From positions 1 through 25,219 of the forward strand of contig WIXG01000712.1 in NCBI GenBank assembly GCA_009869945.1: a DNA stretch of 25,219 bases. Direction: 5' to 3'. This document shows, piece by piece, positions 6,167-16,447 of the stretch (positions are counted from its first letter, which is position 1; each line of letters starts with the position of its first letter). The translations under genes were made by a program, and so were the position numbers. Source of the DNA: Mesaphorura yosii (lineage: Eukaryota > Arthropoda > Collembola > Poduromorpha > Tullbergiidae). The notes under the pieces were generated by a model. It ran no database searches, had not been told where the DNA came from, and was given only the letters and a program-made list of their open reading frames with translations.

Positions 6167-6242
6167 TCATAGTCATAGTCGTTAACTAAGGACAAACCCT
6201 TTATTTTTGTATCCACAATAAATCGACCACGTATGGAAATAC

Positions 6243-7011
6243 TTAATCTACATTGATTCCAATGTATAAGGAAGCCACAAGCCCTTCGGCGCTCCCGACG
6301 TTTCCCCGTACGTCGTTGAAGGTAGTCTGCGCTCCTCCATAATTGGGGTAATCAACATCGTCCTCGTTGGACGTCGGCGGGTCTGGTCGCAACGAGTAAG
6401 GTCGAACGGCTCGAATTCGTTGGGTTAAGGCGTTGGTAAAGTAAAGTGTACCAGTGTGCCTGAGTGTGCGTCCTCCACACCCGCCAGCGCCTCCACCACC
6501 GCCAAGAAACACCTTAATATGTATATGAGGGCAGCGGAATGGATACCAACCCGGGTAAATGGTGTAGAATGTAACTCGACCTCGGGCGTCGCTGATTTGA
6601 GTCCCACGAAGGTAAGTTTGCCCCAGTTCGAAACCTGAAACTCGAGAACTAAGAAAATGGCGATGGCCCTGAAGGGGTTAGATGAGGTCATACCCCATCT
6701 GCGTACGTACCAAGTCCCGAATGCCTTCCAAAGGCATCAGCATGCCAGAGGTCCACTTTGGCGTTCGGTACTTGGCTACAGGTTGCGTTGGCAGTGTTAT
6801 TGGCGCGTACAAACACTAGATGGAGGGCCAAAGGTACTCCGATGCAGTCCTCAGTGATGTTCTTCCGTACAAGGTTCAGGGAAAGATAAGTTGGAGGTTT
6901 TGGGGTTTCTTGGTCGAGGAAACAATTTTCCCCGCCCGCGCTGCTGCTTCCTTGCTTACAGCAAACAGCGGCAAATTTAAAAAGGAGGAAAAAAAATAAA
7001 GCGAGCACCAT
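6243..7011 (-). CDS. Secreted intradiol ring-cleavage dioxygenase-like protein (open paralog)
   Basis: Two exons on the minus strand, 7011-6711 and 6634-6243, are joined across a 76-base GT-AG intron (donor CTTG|GTACGT, acceptor TTTCAG). The join is phase-consistent and gives 230 residues; an upstream in-frame ATG at 7050 would add 13. Residues 1-17 are a signal peptide (MVLALFFFLLFKFAAVCC). Family landmarks follow: RKNITEDCIGVPLALHL, VDLWHADAFG (residues 86-95), QTYLRGTQISDARGRVTFYT and IYPGWYPFRCPHIHIKVF. The two ligand His (137, 139) and the second ligand Tyr (131) are present. The position that normally gives the first ligand Tyr, in the WHADAxGxYSG motif, is His 97 (GRHSG), and the usual GR of WYPGR is FR. 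The family cleaves catechol-type aromatics with non-haem iron(III). Secreted forms in mites and springtails are attributed to horizontal transfer from fungi. Whether this variant is active is unclear. Confidence 0.85.
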
Positions 7012-7231
7012 TTTGCTTCGTCGCAGTTTTCGAGTCACTGAAGAAGGCATTTAGAGGAGGAATTGGAGTAAGAAATTCGTGCTCCTCCAAATTAGGACGA
7101 CATTAACCGTCTTCGTCAAGTTGTCAGTCAGTCTTCAATCAGTGAATCGAGTAAGCGAAGACAATTGATCAAATCTTAATTAATTCCTTAATTCGAAGTC
7201 AATATTTTATTGTCTGCAGCCATTTCACCCT

Positions 7232-7942
7232 TCATCCTCTCCTGCCTCCGTGTCTTGGACCGCCACCACCGCCTCTTGTCGACGGCGTGACAGCTGGATC
7301 GATTCCAATGTACATGGTCGCCACTAAACATGGCCAGAGCCCGTATAGCCTTGCACGCCCTCGAAAGTCGTCTCCGTTCCTCCGCGCCTCATGAAGATAT
7401 CGTCCTTCTCTTGAGACAACGGATGGCTGTTTCTGGTGGAGTATGGCTGGATACTTCGACTGGATTCGGAGAAGTAAAGCTAGCCCACATGCTTAAGCGC
7501 TCTACTCACATAACCTTCGACGTGTATATGAATAAAACGACCAGGATACCAACCAGGGTAAATGGTGTTGAATGTCACGTCTCCGTGGGAGTCAGTGGCT
7601 TGAATTCCACAGAGAAAGGTCGTGGAAGAAGAAGAAGCACCAGTTTGAACTTCCAAGGCGTAAATTCTGCCAGGGGACTTAAGAGCAGTTGAATGGAGCC
7701 TTACCGTATCCTGAATAAACCCCCATCGCATCAGCATGCCAAATATCTACCGTCGCATCCTGAACTGGTTGACACGTATTCGAATCGACGACTGTCAATT
7801 GCAACTGAAGTGGAATCCCTGCACCGTCTTCAGTTATGTTCCGGCGGAGCAAATGGAGTGGAAAATAAAATGGCCCTACGACAGATTCTGGGTCAAGGGC
7901 ACAGGTTACGTTTACAGTGTGAACTTGACGTGTGTCTTGAAT
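7232..7942 (-). pseudogene. Intradiol ring-cleavage dioxygenase-like paralog, inactivated
   Basis: Minus-strand homology runs over almost the whole mature domain: VTCALDPESVVGPFYFPLHL, LRRNITEDGAGIPLQLQLTV, VDIWHADAMGVYSGYG, then a 55-base intron (7704-7650, GTAAGG...AG, phase 1), TTFLCGIQATDSHGDVTF, IYPGWYPGRFIHIHV and, past the lesions, LYFSESSRSIQPYS and VATMYIGIDP with a Gly-rich tail. All four metal-ligand positions (Tyr, Tyr, His, His) are of the standard type. The gene is nevertheless broken. A TAG at 7482-7480 replaces the Gln expected in HVGQLYF, the frame slips near 7321-7330, and the 5' end lacks a start codon and signal peptide because the frame is closed by a TAA at 7945-7943. 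It lies head-to-tail with the open copy to its left, with the single intron at the homologous place, so the two are tandem duplicates. Confidence 0.85.
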
Positions 7943-8660
7943 TTAAGGTGCATTATGTAACACGCAGGGCAATGGATATGACTTTGAATCTTCACGCTGT
8001 GTACATTTTGTGGTGAAACGCGAAATCCAGATTTTGCTGCAAACGAACTCAAATTGTGAGCAAAATGTTCCACATTTTAATTCCATTTCGCAACAATTCG
8101 CAATTACAATTATGTAGTCCAAATTCCAATTTCGCAATAGTGAGTGGAGTTGAGTGGCGAATTGATGGGTGTCATCGTTTACGCGAACAACCGCGTTCGA
8201 CCTTCAAGAATTCGCATCATTTATTCGTGGGGGGTGGCAATTTGCAATTTTCTGCACATATTTGCATAATTTAGCAACGAAGAGCTTGGTAAATGGTAAC
8301 CGGCATAAATTGGACTTCAAATTGGCAGCATGTTGAAGGAGAATTATTGATTAGGAATCAGAATAGAATTTTGTCATAAAATCTTAATTCGCATCCATTC
8401 AGCTACTCTCATCAACTTACTCTCTGAGTACGCGGGACTATTTGAATTCATAAATGTTCGACTCGACGGCGATTAATTGAGTGATTTATTCCTTTGGGAT
8501 TCTAATTACCAGTTCCCATCTACAATTCCATAAAATTGGCATACGCTAACGACAGGAAGTTTTAAGCCACATAAATTAGGATTAATGTCCACTTTAAGTG
8601 CCATTAAAGCTATTAAGTTGTGATTAAGAGAAACGACTCCCCATTTACAGCTGAATTCGA
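7943..8660. other. AT-rich intergenic region without a gene
   Basis: About 700 bases with many AATT-type words (for example around 8090-8140 and 8330-8400) and no supported frame on either strand. The missing 5' exon of the dioxygenase paralog would be expected here but was not found. The right end leads into the promoter of the small secreted gene at 8727. Confidence 0.5.
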
Positions 8661-8663
8661 AGA

Positions 8664-8671
8664 TATAAAAA
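8664..8671 (+). promoter_or_regulatory. TATA box (TATAAAAA) of the small secreted protein gene
   Basis: TATAAAAA is followed about 30 bases later by an initiator-like TCAGAAGTC (about 8696), giving a leader of about 30 bases before the ATG at 8727. This spacing fits a classical arthropod TATA-Inr core promoter. Confidence 0.65.
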
Positions 8672-8726
8672 GGAGTTCGGAGCACTGTAACCACATCAGA
8701 AGTCGAAGCACCAGAAATTCTACAAC

Positions 8727-9005
8727 ATGGCTACAATTCGTGTACTTTTCTTCCTCTTATTGATTGCGCTGGCTGCTGTGGTAGCTGAAGAAGCAGCAGC
8801 ACGCCAAGAGAAACGATTTGAACATGACGGGAAGACCATTTCCATTTGCTGGACTTCAGGAATCCCTGGGTCAGGATTTCCTTACCCATGCCGTCGTAGT
8901 GCCCTGCTGCCGGAGTCTGAAGGACGTCAGGAAGAAAGACTGGAACCAGCGTCAGCGCTGACGAAGGAGGCACGAATCTGTACTCCTTGGGAATGCGACC
9001 CGTAA
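8727..9005 (+). CDS. Small secreted preproprotein-like peptide, unknown function
   Basis: Single-exon frame of 92 residues with a strong signal peptide (MATIRVLFFLLLIALAAVVA), then an acidic/Ala/Gln stretch ending in a dibasic site (RQEKR, about residues 26-30). The remaining peptide of about 60 residues has four cysteines (SIC, YPC, RIC, WEC). That layout (signal, short pro-region, KR site, Cys-containing peptide) is seen in precursors of neuropeptides, antimicrobial peptides and other secreted peptides; no specific family is recognised. The start is fixed by the TATA box at 8664. A second frame stays open across the C-terminal half (8870-8965), so a frameshift or an unrecognised intron cannot be excluded for the tail. 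No AATAAA lies close behind the stop. Confidence 0.6.
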   Translation: MATIRVLFFLLLIALAAVVAEEAAARQEKRFEHDGKTISICWTSGIPGSGFPYPCRRSALLPESEGRQEERLEPASALTKEARICTPWECDP

Positions 9006-9347: not shown

Positions 9348-9887
9348 ATGAAGAAATCTGTTCTCGGCTTAATTCTCCTCACTTTTCTGGTGCTTGACTC
9401 CATCGTAGCCAATGCAGCCGTTGACAGGTACCTTGCAGGGCTCGTCCTCTACAGAAATAGCACCAGCCGCAGCCGCGCCACCGGAATCGAGTACTTGCTC
9501 CTGAAGAAGGCTCGTGGTGACAAAGAATGGCAGCCCGCCAAAGGTAAGGTCGAACCTGACATCGACGCCTCCATATTCGACGGCGCTATTCGTGAAGTGC
9601 TGGAGGAGACCGGGTTCACTCCATCTGATTACGACTCGGTCTCGTACGAGAGCCTCCACCTGGTACACCAGTACGTGGCTCGTGACGGCATCGCCAAGCA
9701 GGTCGATATGTGGCCCGCATGTGTGAACAAGTCAGCTGCTTCGAGGCCAGTAACCTTATCTCATGAACATTCCAGATTCAAATGGGTCGCCATTAAGAAG
9801 GTAAAGGAGCTAGTTAATAAACGCTGGTTTCAGAACGTTTTCGAGCCGACGGAGGAGTTTCTCAAGGCTCGCCGAATGAATTTGTAA
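9348..9887 (+). CDS. Secreted NUDT2-like Nudix hydrolase
   Basis: Intronless frame of 179 residues. Residues 1-23 are a signal peptide (MKKSVLGLILLTFLVLDSIV to the NA-A junction). The rest aligns along its length with the Ap4A hydrolase (NUDT2) branch of the Nudix family: AGLVLYRN at 30-37, EYLLLKKA at 48-55, W61 with QPAKGKVEP (62-70), the Nudix helix AIREVLEETGF (80-90), W122 and LSHEHSRFKW (137-146). NUDT2 enzymes split diadenosine tetraphosphate in the cytosol or nucleus, so secretion is unusual. The Nudix box is also odd: two extra residues lie between the GK and the REVLEE helix, and the usual first Glu position is Ile 72. The metal-binding REVLEE core is intact. N-glycosylation sequons occur at 37-39 and 127-129. 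It stands alone, with its own TATA box and a poly(A) signal at 9923. Confidence 0.85.
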   Translation: MKKSVLGLILLTFLVLDSIVANAAVDRYLAGLVLYRNSTSRSRATGIEYLLLKKARGDKEWQPAKGKVEPDIDASIFDGAIREVLEETGFTPSDYDSVSYESLHLVHQYVARDGIAKQVDMWPACVNKSAASRPVTLSHEHSRFKWVAIKKVKELVNKRWFQNVFEPTEEFLKARRMNL

Positions 9888-9922
9888 TTCACATGATAGC
9901 GCAACCACAGTCAGAAAAAATC

Positions 9923-9928
9923 AATAAA
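9923..9928 (+). terminator. Poly(A) signal AATAAA of the Nudix gene
   Basis: AATAAA lies 36 bases after the Nudix stop codon and is followed by CT/TTTC-rich sequence. This is consistent with cleavage shortly downstream. Confidence 0.6.
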
Positions 9929-10028
9929 TTCGCTTCACTCTGCACTTTCGCTTCTACTCTCACTGGTACTTCCTCCAGTCGTACGGCATATATGTACGGA
10001 TATGTAATGGATTTTAATCACCCGAATC

Positions 10029-10418
10029 TCATCGTTGGTCCAATTCCAATTCGTATCGAGCAATTACAGAGATGATTAATACGATAAGAGCCCCAACTAA
10101 TACCCACAATCCATAATATTCAAATTTTTACCGTACGTAGATCTTCGTGATTACACTCACCTTCATCGCTATCGCAGTCTGCATCACAATATCCGAATAC
10201 TACAGAGTGCTACGTGACACAGGGCAGCTGATAAGCGTCGGCATCTACGCCGCTGACTCCGCCAGCAACGGCGGCGGCTGCGATTACCGTTATCACTCCC
10301 ATCGATCGAGAAAGAAGATCGAAGTTGATCTGGCCATCAAAATCTGCATCATACCAATGCTCCTCAATTGCACCCTGTTCATTGTTTGCAAACGGATTCG
10401 AAATCCTGATTGGCGTCA
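10029..10418 (-). CDS. Putative small Asp-rich two-helix membrane protein, partial
   Basis: Three minus-strand segments can be chained by phase-matching splice sites. Exon A is 10418-10258 (acceptor ATTTGCAG), exon B is 10209-10161 (acceptor CACGTAG, donor GAAG|GTGAGT) and exon C is 10096-10029 (acceptor GTATTAG). The introns are 48 and 64 bases, and the chain ends at a TGA at 10031-10029. The product contains an acidic stretch (HWYDADFDGQINFD), a hydrophobic segment (VITVIAAAAVAGG), a second acidic Cys-bearing stretch (FGYCDADCDSDE) and a strong transmembrane helix (VGALIVLIISVIARYELELD) just before the stop. The donor after exon A (GGA|GTCAGC) is weak, so the join A to B is less sure than B to C. 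No start codon with a signal sequence was found upstream, so the 5' end is missing. The function and family are not recognised. Confidence 0.4.
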
Positions 10419-10689
10419 CTGCAAATATTCGGCATTAAATTCAGTCAAGGAGTGTTGTCTGCACTTGCTTCAAGCTGACGTTCGGATTATGGAGCCTGAT
10501 AGCAGTCATTCTTGCTGCAGGTTACTTCGGAATATTATTGGCCCATGTTGCGTGAGTCAATGCAAATGCAGGATTCAGAGTCCAAGTTACAATCAGAGTT
10601 ATAGTATGATAGAGAGGCGGAGAGTGCAAGAGAGAGGAAAAGAGTCAGACAAGGAGAGAAATACGAACCCTAATTTTTTTTTTAAATGC

Positions 10690-11392: not shown

Positions 11393-11700
11393 TCCAGTTA
11401 GGGTTCTGGCAGGCTAATGGCGACTCTGACATGAAGAATGATCGAATATTCGCAATGCACTAAAGAACATGAAAAACAAAACTCTTGACGAAACAAACAA
11501 GGCAAATGTGACATGAGTCAATTACATTAGTCAATTGTTGAATCGTGCCTTATCAGAACACGTACAAGATGAAGTAATTAAATTCCCAATTAAATTTCAC
11601 AGGAGACCTTTGTACCCAATCAAGGCTTCAAGTGCTGACTCGGATAGCAACTGATGGCTTCAAATACCAACGTCGGATGAGCATATGTCTCACATTTTGC
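11393..11700. other. Spacer and 5' region of the crystallin/aerolysin-like gene
   Basis: About 300 AT-rich bases. An upstream in-frame ATG at 11632 exists, but the signal peptide starts at 11704. No clear TATA box was seen. An acceptor-like CACAG at about 11600 could belong to a leader intron. Confidence 0.4.
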
Positions 11701-11703
11701 AAA

Positions 11704-13014
11704 ATGGCACGATTTGCGTTCGCACAGTTTTTGTGGCTCCTGGCGCTCCTGGCGGCGCCATTAACATCCGGGCTGACCACAATCCGCTTGTACGAGCATT
11801 CCAACTTTGGGGGCTCCTCCACGGTCTGCTCCGACCTGGAAGACTTTAGTTACTGCTGGCTCGGCGCGTTCAACAACAAAATGACGTCTTACCGAATCGA
11901 AAGCGGTTCCTGTGTAATCATGTACGACGAGAACCCGCCAGGTGGCTTCTCATTCTGGTCGGACGGCGACGTTGCCAACGTTGGCTCAGAGTACAACGAC
12001 CAAGTCAGCAGTATGTCTTCCTGTGGGCGGAGCACGACCACTGCTGGCTGTCCCGAGGGAACCTTCGTCCGCACGGTGGAGTGGGCTAACGACGAGCTGC
12101 GTCGGGGCGTGCGTCTCCATTGCATGTACCCCAACACAACCACACAGACGTCGGCGGTGTTGTACACACACCCCGAAGACGAAGAAGCGGACCTGCCCCA
12201 GCGCCAGACCTGCGACGGGGTTCACGGTATTGCCTTCAAGCGTGACGAGCAAAAAGAAGCCGACGTGAGTCTGACGCCCGTCTGCAGGCCCGGCGAGACC
12301 GAGGGCAACACGATCATGTGTGGAGAACGCCAGGCCGTCGTCGGGATCCACGTCGAAAAGGAGAACCTTTCGAACCAAATCAAAAGCTCGACTCTGTTCT
12401 GCCAAGATGTGGGCAACATTGAAGAATTCTGCGCTGCATTCGACCGCCTGGAGCAGCTTTTCATTTGCGATGCCACGAACGCAGCTGCCCCGCTGAAGTG
12501 CACGCACGCCAAACGAATCGGGTACGGAGTGTCGAGCTCCATGACCGAATCGGAGCGATACGAGCACATTTTCTATCAGCAATACGGTTTCAATATCAGT
12601 TACGCGGGTTTTGGCCTGAAAACCAATTTCCAGTTCCAAATTGGGGAAAGCGAAGTCACGGGCTATGATTGGACGAAGACAACAGGTGAGACATGGAGTG
12701 AGGAAGTTACGCTTACTGTCGAGGCGGAGGCACCACCTGGCTGCAGGACGACTGTGACAGAAGTTGTTGGCGACTGCTCATTTATGAAGGTGAGACCATC
12801 CATCTTCATCCGGACTGACGAGTGTGTGGACCGCAAACCCTACGTGACTTGGGAACGGATTCCAGAGGGCGCTAGTTCTAGTGGCAAATTCAAATACACG
12901 AGTCATGCCCCGGAGATCCTGCTGACACCAGCGGCGGGAGCGAATGTGGGTGTCCCTCACCAAAAAATTCGACCTGATAAAGTCAATCTTGATAATATTG
13001 TGAAATTAAATTAG
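11704..13014 (+). CDS. Secreted beta/gamma-crystallin domain plus aerolysin-like region protein
   Basis: One uninterrupted exon of 436 residues. Residues 1-23 form a signal peptide (MARFAFAQFLWLLALLAAPL). Residues about 25-108 are a beta/gamma-crystallin domain with two Greek-key motifs (TIRLYEHSNFGG; VIMYDENPPGGFSFWSDGD) and both calcium-clamp hexads matching N/D-N/D-x-x-S/T-S (NNKMTS and NDQVSS). A Cys-rich middle part follows (about 110-280). The C-terminal third is a Ser/Thr-rich amphipathic beta region (YGFNISYAGFGLKTNFQF, then TTGETWSEEVTLTVEAEAPP and GCRTTVTEVVGDC) that resembles the insertion and receptor-distal part of aerolysin/ETX-MTX2-type beta-pore-forming proteins. Fusions of crystallin and aerolysin-like domains are known from amphibian skin complexes and scattered invertebrates. 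A defensive or digestive secreted role is inferred. The crystallin call is firm and the aerolysin call moderate. An earlier ATG at 11632 would hide the signal peptide. Confidence 0.75.
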   Translation: MARFAFAQFLWLLALLAAPLTSGLTTIRLYEHSNFGGSSTVCSDLEDFSYCWLGAFNNKMTSYRIESGSCVIMYDENPPGGFSFWSDGDVANVGSEYNDQVSSMSSCGRSTTTAGCPEGTFVRTVEWANDELRRGVRLHCMYPNTTTQTSAVLYTHPEDEEADLPQRQTCDGVHGIAFKRDEQKEADVSLTPVCRPGETEGNTIMCGERQAVVGIHVEKENLSNQIKSSTLFCQDVGNIEEFCAAFDRLEQLFICDATNAAAPLKCTHAKRIGYGVSSSMTESERYEHIFYQQYGFNISYAGFGLKTNFQFQIGESEVTGYDWTKTTGETWSEEVTLTVEAEAPPGCRTTVTEVVGDCSFMKVRPSIFIRTDECVDRKPYVTWERIPEGASSSGKFKYTSHAPEILLTPAAGANVGVPHQKIRPDKVNLDNIVKLN

Positions 13015-15369: not shown

Positions 15370-15808
15370 AAGACTCGAACAACGCCTCTTCGTATTTGTA
15401 CAAATTTGCGCATAGTTGCATTTACATGTGTTTACAGTTGCCCATTTCATGCAATTATGAGTGAAATGTTGTCATTCTTAATAAAATATGGCGTGACATG
15501 ATTAACATCAGCTTATTTTTAAAACATTCGCGAAATGTACAGAATATTTGCTTGCTATATATTAAATTGAACTTGAGCATGATAAGTGATTGCACGTGGC
15601 CAACGAACATTGCAGTGCAATTCAACTAAATTGGACATTGAAATTGAATAAATAACAGAGTTGTTGAGATTCTACGAGCCAATTAGCCAGTTGTCACTCA
15701 GACACCTGGACTTTTCGATTGCGAAGTTAATTTGCGCATTGTCTTGTTAGTAAAAACTGTAGGTTGACAATTTCAAGCTATCAGTGAAGTCACACAATAC
15801 AATTAAGG
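15370..15808. other. Spacer and promoter region of the LPMO gene
   Basis: About 440 AT-rich bases with no open frame worth naming. It must contain the LPMO promoter, but no TATA box with proper spacing to 15809 is evident. Confidence 0.4.
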
Positions 15809-16447
15809 ATGTACAAACTTGCGCTAGTTGCCGTTCTCGCCGTCGCAATCGCCTCGGTGGTGTCGGGCCACGGACGGCTCATGAAGCCCCCGAATCGCTC
15901 CTCCATCTGGCGTTTCCCAGAATTCCAGGCGCAGAACCCGCCTCCGAACTACAGCGACAGCGAACTGTACTGCGGGCAACTTTTCCAGCCTGAAAACCCG
16001 GGTTCGGAGTGCGGCGTGTGTGGCGACCCGCTTTCGGCGCCCGCTCCGCGCCCCAACGAACACGGGGGTACTTACGGGCTCGGAGTTGTGACGGGGCGCT
16101 ACACGCCCGGGCAGCTTATCGACGTCGAAGTGGAACTCACGGCCGCACACAAAGGATTCATGGAATTTCGCCTCTGCACCGACCGCCGAACGGAGACACA
16201 AGCGTGCTTCAATCAGCATTTGCTCCGTCTGGAAAATGGCAGCACAAGAGTCGAAGTGCCGCACCCGGGAAAAGGATTCTACTTTGTGAAGGTTCAGCTC
16301 CCGGAGGACGTGCGCTGCTCGGAGTGCGTCATTCAATGGAATTATCGGACTGGAAATCGTTCAGGCGAATGCGAAGACGGATCAACAGCCGTTGGGTGCG
16401 GACCACAGGAGACATTCAGAGGATGTGCTGATGTCGTCATTAGTTAA
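15809..16447 (+). CDS. Secreted AA15-type lytic polysaccharide monooxygenase
   Basis: Intronless frame of 212 residues. The signal peptide (1-20, MYKLALVAVLAVAIASVVSG) ends exactly before His 21, so the mature protein starts with the copper-binding His (HGRLMKPPNRSSIWRF) as in all LPMOs. The second histidine-brace His is 114 (TAAHKG) and the axial aromatic is Phe 203 in QETFRGCADV. Family cysteines are present (CGVCGD, RLCT, CFNQH, CSECVIQW, CADVV). AA15 enzymes oxidatively cut chitin or cellulose and occur widely in arthropods, for feeding or cuticle remodelling. The catalytic module is complete with no linker or carbohydrate-binding module, as is common for short arthropod AA15 proteins. 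One unusual spot is GNRSG, where the family normally has GNSWG. The gene is isolated, between a dead LRR gene and a mariner relic, and uses G/C-rich codons. Confidence 0.9.
   Translation: MYKLALVAVLAVAIASVVSGHGRLMKPPNRSSIWRFPEFQAQNPPPNYSDSELYCGQLFQPENPGSECGVCGDPLSAPAPRPNEHGGTYGLGVVTGRYTPGQLIDVEVELTAAHKGFMEFRLCTDRRTETQACFNQHLLRLENGSTRVEVPHPGKGFYFVKVQLPEDVRCSECVIQWNYRTGNRSGECEDGSTAVGCGPQETFRGCADVVIS

Follow-up and report, generated by a model that had tools for sequence, protein, structure and literature searches.

The left of two intradiol dioxygenase-like genes found on the minus strand of contig WIXG01000712.1 of the springtail Mesaphorura yosii (25,219 nucleotides; this whole stretch is hereinafter called the window) carries His in place of the first of the four iron-ligand residues typical of the family. 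Beyond the ligand loss, four strongly conserved positions carry changes as well, and five gene models that look intact, each retaining the complete ligand set, are present in the same genome. The favored reading, to which we assign a probability of roughly 0.6, is that the left gene represents a paralogue whose catalysis is impaired or lost and whose constraint is relaxed, residing beside a recently broken normal gene, while the family keeps its activity. In mechanistic terms, it would be a diverged member of a secreted intradiol ring-cleavage dioxygenase family with at least seven loci in this animal genome. Its product would still be secreted and would retain the same fold, and its iron site, devoid of the equatorial Tyr, would cleave catechols poorly or not at all. 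Constraint on this gene would be relaxed since the other copies carry the activity.

The left gene (6243..7050, minus strand, stop codon included) is predicted to encode 243 amino acids in two exons (6711..7050 and 6243..6634), the second of them harboring a glycine-rich in-frame insertion. The exons are separated by a predicted 76-bp intron (6635..6710; GTACGT...TTTCAG, i.e., of the GT-AG type). Alternative splice choices are also in frame; the one adopted yields a phase-1 intron, matching the other copies, and the resulting spliced model comprises 243 codons with zero stops. The length differences between this gene and the other copies keep its frame open as well. The N terminus resembles a signal peptide in being hydrophobic (mean hydropathy 2.6 over 12 residues, with hydropathy alone as the measure). 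The protein passes the curated Pfam cut-off for PF00775 (Dioxygenase_C), scoring 31.5 bits vs. the cut-off of 27.3; the protein of another locus of the same genome, C982, scores 55.5 bits. As in the secreted animal family of intradiol ring-cleavage dioxygenases (DOGs), the gene contains an intron (by predicted splice sites) and is accompanied by related loci in its own eukaryotic assembly.

The characteristic set of two Tyr and two His is incomplete in this protein, with three of the four ligands present. The second (axial) Tyr position is occupied by Tyr144 (6543..6545, coordinates worked out from the gene model), both His ligands are kept in the stretch His150-Ile-His152 (6519..6527), and the first Tyr position is taken by His110, encoded by CAT (6721..6723); all these features are on the minus strand. 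Arg147, the R of the WYPGR motif, is also kept (Arg in all 144 public rows with 200 aa or more). Judging from the sequence, the left gene descends from intradiol dioxygenases; its metal site lacks a defining feature of the family, hence it is not to be called a working enzyme. The original prediction of an open frame reading GRHSG, with the first ligand Tyr turned into His 97, was borne out, the number 97 counting from the second Met and 110 from the first.

In intradiol dioxygenases, Fe(III) is held by two Tyr and two His, and the axial Tyr gives way to the substrate, which binds in a two-handed manner (PMC8231159 and PMC3543765). According to PMC8231159, the Tyr coming first in the sequence, Tyr-167, is the equatorial iron ligand and Tyr-201 is the axial one; the ligands of another such enzyme are given as Tyr164, Tyr198, His222, and His224 (PMC3112211). 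In a phmmer alignment, gap-free nearby, His110 of the left protein is matched with the GIYSG Tyr of the enzyme 6BDJ from a spider mite, and the Tyr at the same position of the C982 protein falls on Tyr164 of the catechol 1,2-dioxygenase 1DLM, as counted along the alignment. By alignment, the axial Tyr and the two His ligands are thus retained in the left protein, and the equatorial Tyr is replaced by His; the assumption that this His sits at a ligand position is sustained by 6BDJ and, through C982, by 1DLM.

The public relatives compared comprised 284 proteins from three similarity searches (two of which contributed the best 120 of 172 and the best 120 of 3153), collected by similarity to this dioxygenase family and not as a random sample; the rows listed were mostly bacterial or unnamed, plus a few named animals (Medioppia, Oppiella, Didymodactylos), and two of them, P0047 and P0167, are relatives of the C982 exons. 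The 144 rows with a length of 200 aa or more were aligned together with the genome's six open copies; every one of these rows shows Tyr at the ligand position, and of the open copies only the left protein has His. A looser, pattern-based count over the 284 rows gave 262 readable ligand positions, all of them Tyr (261 by pattern plus P0034, scored as G by the pattern but reading GVYGG), and 22 unreadable ones, including incomplete sequences; in the short rows P0156 and P0157, the motif was absent, in a stretch resembling frame-shifted sequence. The survey proposed earlier for a clade of GRHSG-type copies came out empty: protein searches revealed no His-type relative of the left gene among the public rows listed, including the best 120 of 172, and the exon 2 search (best 120 of 3153) could not inform on His, the position lying outside that exon.

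In each of the five remaining open copies of the genome, the ligand position is occupied by Tyr, encoded by TAC or TAT. The latter codon, found in C984, is one transition away from the CAT of the left gene, so the His could in principle represent a base error or a rare allele of a gene with Tyr as its usual residue, the more so as the evidence comes from one assembly with the stretch present in one copy (no second haplotype of the stretch was seen there; besides itself, only the C982 gene matched it at the DNA level, with 67% identity). At the same time, four more strongly conserved positions are changed in the same gene, and two of the replacements, Gly to Pro and Gly to Phe, each need more than one base change. 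An error or a rare allele is hence regarded as very unlikely.

These further changes emerged from the comparison of 35 conserved columns, defined as those filled in at least 90% of the public rows and containing one residue in at least 95%. The left protein departs from six of them, one of which (Arg13) is within the N-terminal leader. The departures outside the leader are P47Q, G52P, Y110H, G146F, and Q176T, and the public rows display Pro47 in 136/143, Gly52 in 141/143, Gly146 in 143/144, and Gln176 in 142/144 cases. Over 33 columns (Met1 and Arg13 omitted), the left protein shows five departures vs. one in C982, two each in C984, C1020b, and C291, and three in C1020a, an excess that appears modest. 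Gly146 and Gln176 each vary once among the other genome copies (Leu in C984 and His in C291, respectively), so the replacement of the Gln of the GQLYF stretch by Thr176 has a parallel in C291, also lacking this Gln. The change of WYPGR to WYPFR by Phe146 (6537..6539, minus strand), to which the original prediction drew attention, is real; its weight is low, because the equivalents of Gly146 vary in shorter public rows (YPSR in P0167, YSPR in P0275 from Oppiella nova, YIYR in P0191) and C984 reads WYALR. It can therefore be considered as weak evidence of altered chemistry.

The likely consequence of the ligand loss can be approached by analogy. His at the equatorial Tyr position is shared by the left protein and the Y408H mutant of protocatechuate 3,4-dioxygenase, reportedly the protein of the PDB entries 1YKO/1YKP; their beta-chain sequence is distinct from that of the wild type 2PCD. 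Reportedly, Valley et al. found in 2005 that Y408H displayed activity below 0.1% and that the replaced residue did not reach the iron. Unlike this laboratory-made variant of a bacterial enzyme, the change in the left gene is natural and is joined by others at conserved positions. In view of this precedent, a lost or nearly lost cleavage would be the likeliest outcome in the left protein, a third His serving as a new ligand being possible but unlikely. Of the two possibilities raised originally, changed metal chemistry or lost catalysis, a probable impairment of catalysis was thus upheld, because His is present at a ligand position.

By the same token, new metal chemistry in the left protein seems unlikely. 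An enzyme remaining active with His110 as the third His of a 3-His/1-Tyr site would be compatible with His itself being a possible ligand and with the intactness of the remaining ligand set. It would have to be reconciled with the reported behavior of Y408H and with the loss of Gln176, presumably equivalent to the second-sphere Gln that bacterial enzymes conserve, so an active enzyme of this kind is deemed very improbable.

Among solved structures, the best match by sequence of both the left protein (1.2e-20) and the C982 protein (3.9e-41) was the spider-mite DOG Tetur07g02040 (6BDJ/5VG2), and the spider-mite DOGs appear to be the closest characterised relatives found. This match and the rows from oribatid mites would by themselves suggest a mite as the source, but searches for the mite-allergen family PF11642 and for COX1 gave no match. 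Like the family of the left gene, the spider-mite DOGs are multi-copy secreted proteins of an animal: PMC9167512 mentions 17 DOG genes in Tetranychus urticae, five DOGs of this species cleaving catechols, and 0.3–1.0 iron per purified protein. The left protein differs from these DOGs by His in place of the first Tyr ligand. The C982 gene belongs to the same family and possesses the same phase-1 intron site as the left gene, but it features four ligands, WYPGR, and GQLYF, and it is the closest relative found of the right copy, not of the left gene. A paralogue which lost ligands and kept the fold is known in the alpha chain of protocatechuate 3,4-dioxygenase, harboring a vestigial site and obligately associated with the beta chain, the catalytic one. 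The left protein is not known to pair in this way. As for animals, no ligand-loss intradiol paralogue was encountered among the matches listed in the open-licence literature (titles and abstract starts).

A six-frame search with the left protein, covering the whole assembly (93.0 Mb, 1127 contigs), revealed at least seven loci of the family, the counts being lower bounds: two in the window, one in C982, two in C1020, one in C984, and one in C291. The five models outside the window, lying on four other contigs, are complete from Met to stop and open, and each contains GxYSG as well as the second Tyr and the two His ligands. Thus, the view of the left gene as the only open copy is valid within the window; in the genome, six of the seven loci found are open and five of them have all four ligands. 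The phase-1 intron located just after GxYSGx is found in the left and right copies, in C982, in C984, and in both C1020 models, and in C291 it is situated some codons later. The intron site noted originally as common to the two window copies is indeed present in both; since it is common to the C982, C984, and C1020 models as well, it is ancestral and not a mark of this pair.

Several of these loci are peculiar in their own right. The open copy C984:1573-2339, with its WYALR in place of WYPGR and four ligands kept, represents a natural variant beside the second Tyr. The open copy C291:74338-75280 is far diverged, with His for the Gln of GQLYF and the shifted intron. Its exon 1 looks nearly identical, by eye, to part of the ENA-sourced protein P0048, judging from which this species or a close one is probably represented in public DNA data. 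The C1020 copies (6231-7106 and 9685-10579) are adjacent and very similar, and possess an extra leader intron absent from the left, C982, and C984 models; they likely stem from a recent tandem duplication, unlike the pair in the window.

The right copy of the window is disabled; the stretch of it alignable to the C982 gene spans 7294..7912 on the minus strand, with a 55-bp intron (7650..7704, acceptor judged by eye) at the same site as in the left gene. It retains GVYSG, WYPGR, and HIH, i.e., all four ligands, and compared with C982 it shows an in-frame gap of 12 bases. As predicted originally, it is interrupted by a nonsense TAG codon (7480..7482, minus strand) and by a frame change at about 7350-7327. 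Its similarity to C982 begins abruptly at NVTCALDPES, and its leader displays no similarity to that of C982. A 5' end, missing according to the original prediction, may yet exist: seven Met-led frames are listed upstream (minus strand of 7880-8727), and the best of them (from 8604) has a hydropathy of 1.86, within the range of 1.77–2.61 in six control rows and near the weakest of them, with hydropathy alone as the measure.

The right copy shares 75% identity over 159 columns with C982, the C982 gene also being the single match to it at the DNA level in the rest of the assembly (67%). In a tree of 19 rows, built from the genome's seven loci plus 12 sequences selected among the 284 public ones, with several inner branches left open, the highest identity of the left protein is with the right copy (49%), so there is some ground for the pairing of the two. 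Still, forcing a left + right clade costs 17 log units (p-AU 0.036), whereas forcing right + C982 has zero cost (p-AU 0.545). On these grounds, the notion of the two copies as a contrasted duplicate pair is probably wrong, and a recent tandem origin of the pair was rejected. The right copy is a relative of the intact C982 gene that was disabled recently, and probably not the twin of the left gene.

Selective constraint was assessed with an MG94-type codon model (F3x4 frequencies, fixed trees, 182 columns). With the right copy left out, the dN/dS of the left branch was 0.36 and 0.41 on two trees vs. 0.15 for the rest (2ΔlnL 2.42 and 2.62, not significant); with it included, the estimate was 0.61 vs. 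0.14 (2ΔlnL 4.93, p 0.027), and when the right branch was given its own value, 0.39 vs. 0.16 (2ΔlnL 1.98 over the right branch alone). Freeing the left branch hence reached the 0.05 level in one of four fits, and the value of 1 for this branch, tried in three fits, was rejected in none of them (2ΔlnL 1.76, 0.76, 0.98). As yardsticks, C982 alone had a dN/dS of 0.055 (2ΔlnL 4.4) and C984 alone 0.24. Because C982 alone gains about as much, the branches differ in general, the left one not being singled out by significance. All these values rank the branches without proving relaxation, as synonymous change is saturated on most of them, the trees are assumed, and several tests were carried out.

For the right branch, dN/dS was about 0.09 and the value of 1 was rejected (2ΔlnL 18.57), so the dead copy appears to have been constrained until recently. 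The same figures would suit a right copy that is still functional, with assembly errors mistaken for lesions, and the candidate frame from 8604 makes an upstream leader exon possible. Nevertheless, the co-occurrence of a premature stop and a shifted frame in one short gene argues against it, and a functional right copy is highly improbable. Taken as broken, this copy is what simple loss of a redundant gene would predict, its closest relative C982 being intact. The original prediction saw in the window the opposite of such a loss; what is left of this paradox is that the branch of the open copy looks less constrained than that of the dead one.

Simulated neutral frames stayed open in 0.45–1.1% of 2000 runs (substitutions only, 0.66–0.72 substitutions per codon); therefore, the left gene would have been constrained for much of its history. 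The dN/dS estimates and the simulations together suggest that the gene was either constrained for long and then relaxed, or weakly constrained all along. The left gene may, alternatively, encode a maintained non-catalytic secreted pseudoenzyme, e.g., binding catechol or iron without cleavage, its ligand loss being adaptive or tolerated. This option draws on the frame open despite long divergence and in spite of length differences from the other copies, and on the three ligands and the Arg retained. It is difficult to reconcile with a dN/dS not separable from 1, and no His-type relative that would attest conservation of the His state is among the public rows listed. Such a pseudoenzyme is considered rather unlikely. 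It is also deemed improbable that this natural animal relative of the intradiol dioxygenases persists in secreted form, its metal site being of the 3-His/1-Tyr type or partly empty, and has acquired a role other than cleavage, for instance the capture of catechol or iron.

Elsewhere in the window, a NUDIX-domain protein (9348-9887, plus strand; 38.7 bits) has a signal-peptide-like start (MKKSVLGLILLTFLVLDSIVANA), which is odd for a NUDIX hydrolase. A secreted-looking LPMO_10 protein (lytic polysaccharide mono-oxygenase) is encoded at 15788-16447 (plus strand; 64.9 bits). The long open frame at 11578-13014 (plus strand) resembles beta/gamma-crystallins weakly in its initial part (20.4 bits, under the cut-off of 25), its C-terminal half having no assigned domain.

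In spider mites, laterally acquired dioxygenases are linked to detoxification of plant chemicals (PMC9167512). Against this background, the left gene, read as a catalytically weakened or inactive paralogue, does not show a loss of the activity in the animal, because five intact-looking normal copies remain; it would represent ordinary family turnover. As a ligand-loss paralogue, it shows how such an expanded dioxygenase family may turn over, and if its protein is really kept, it would constitute a natural test of the role of the equatorial Tyr.
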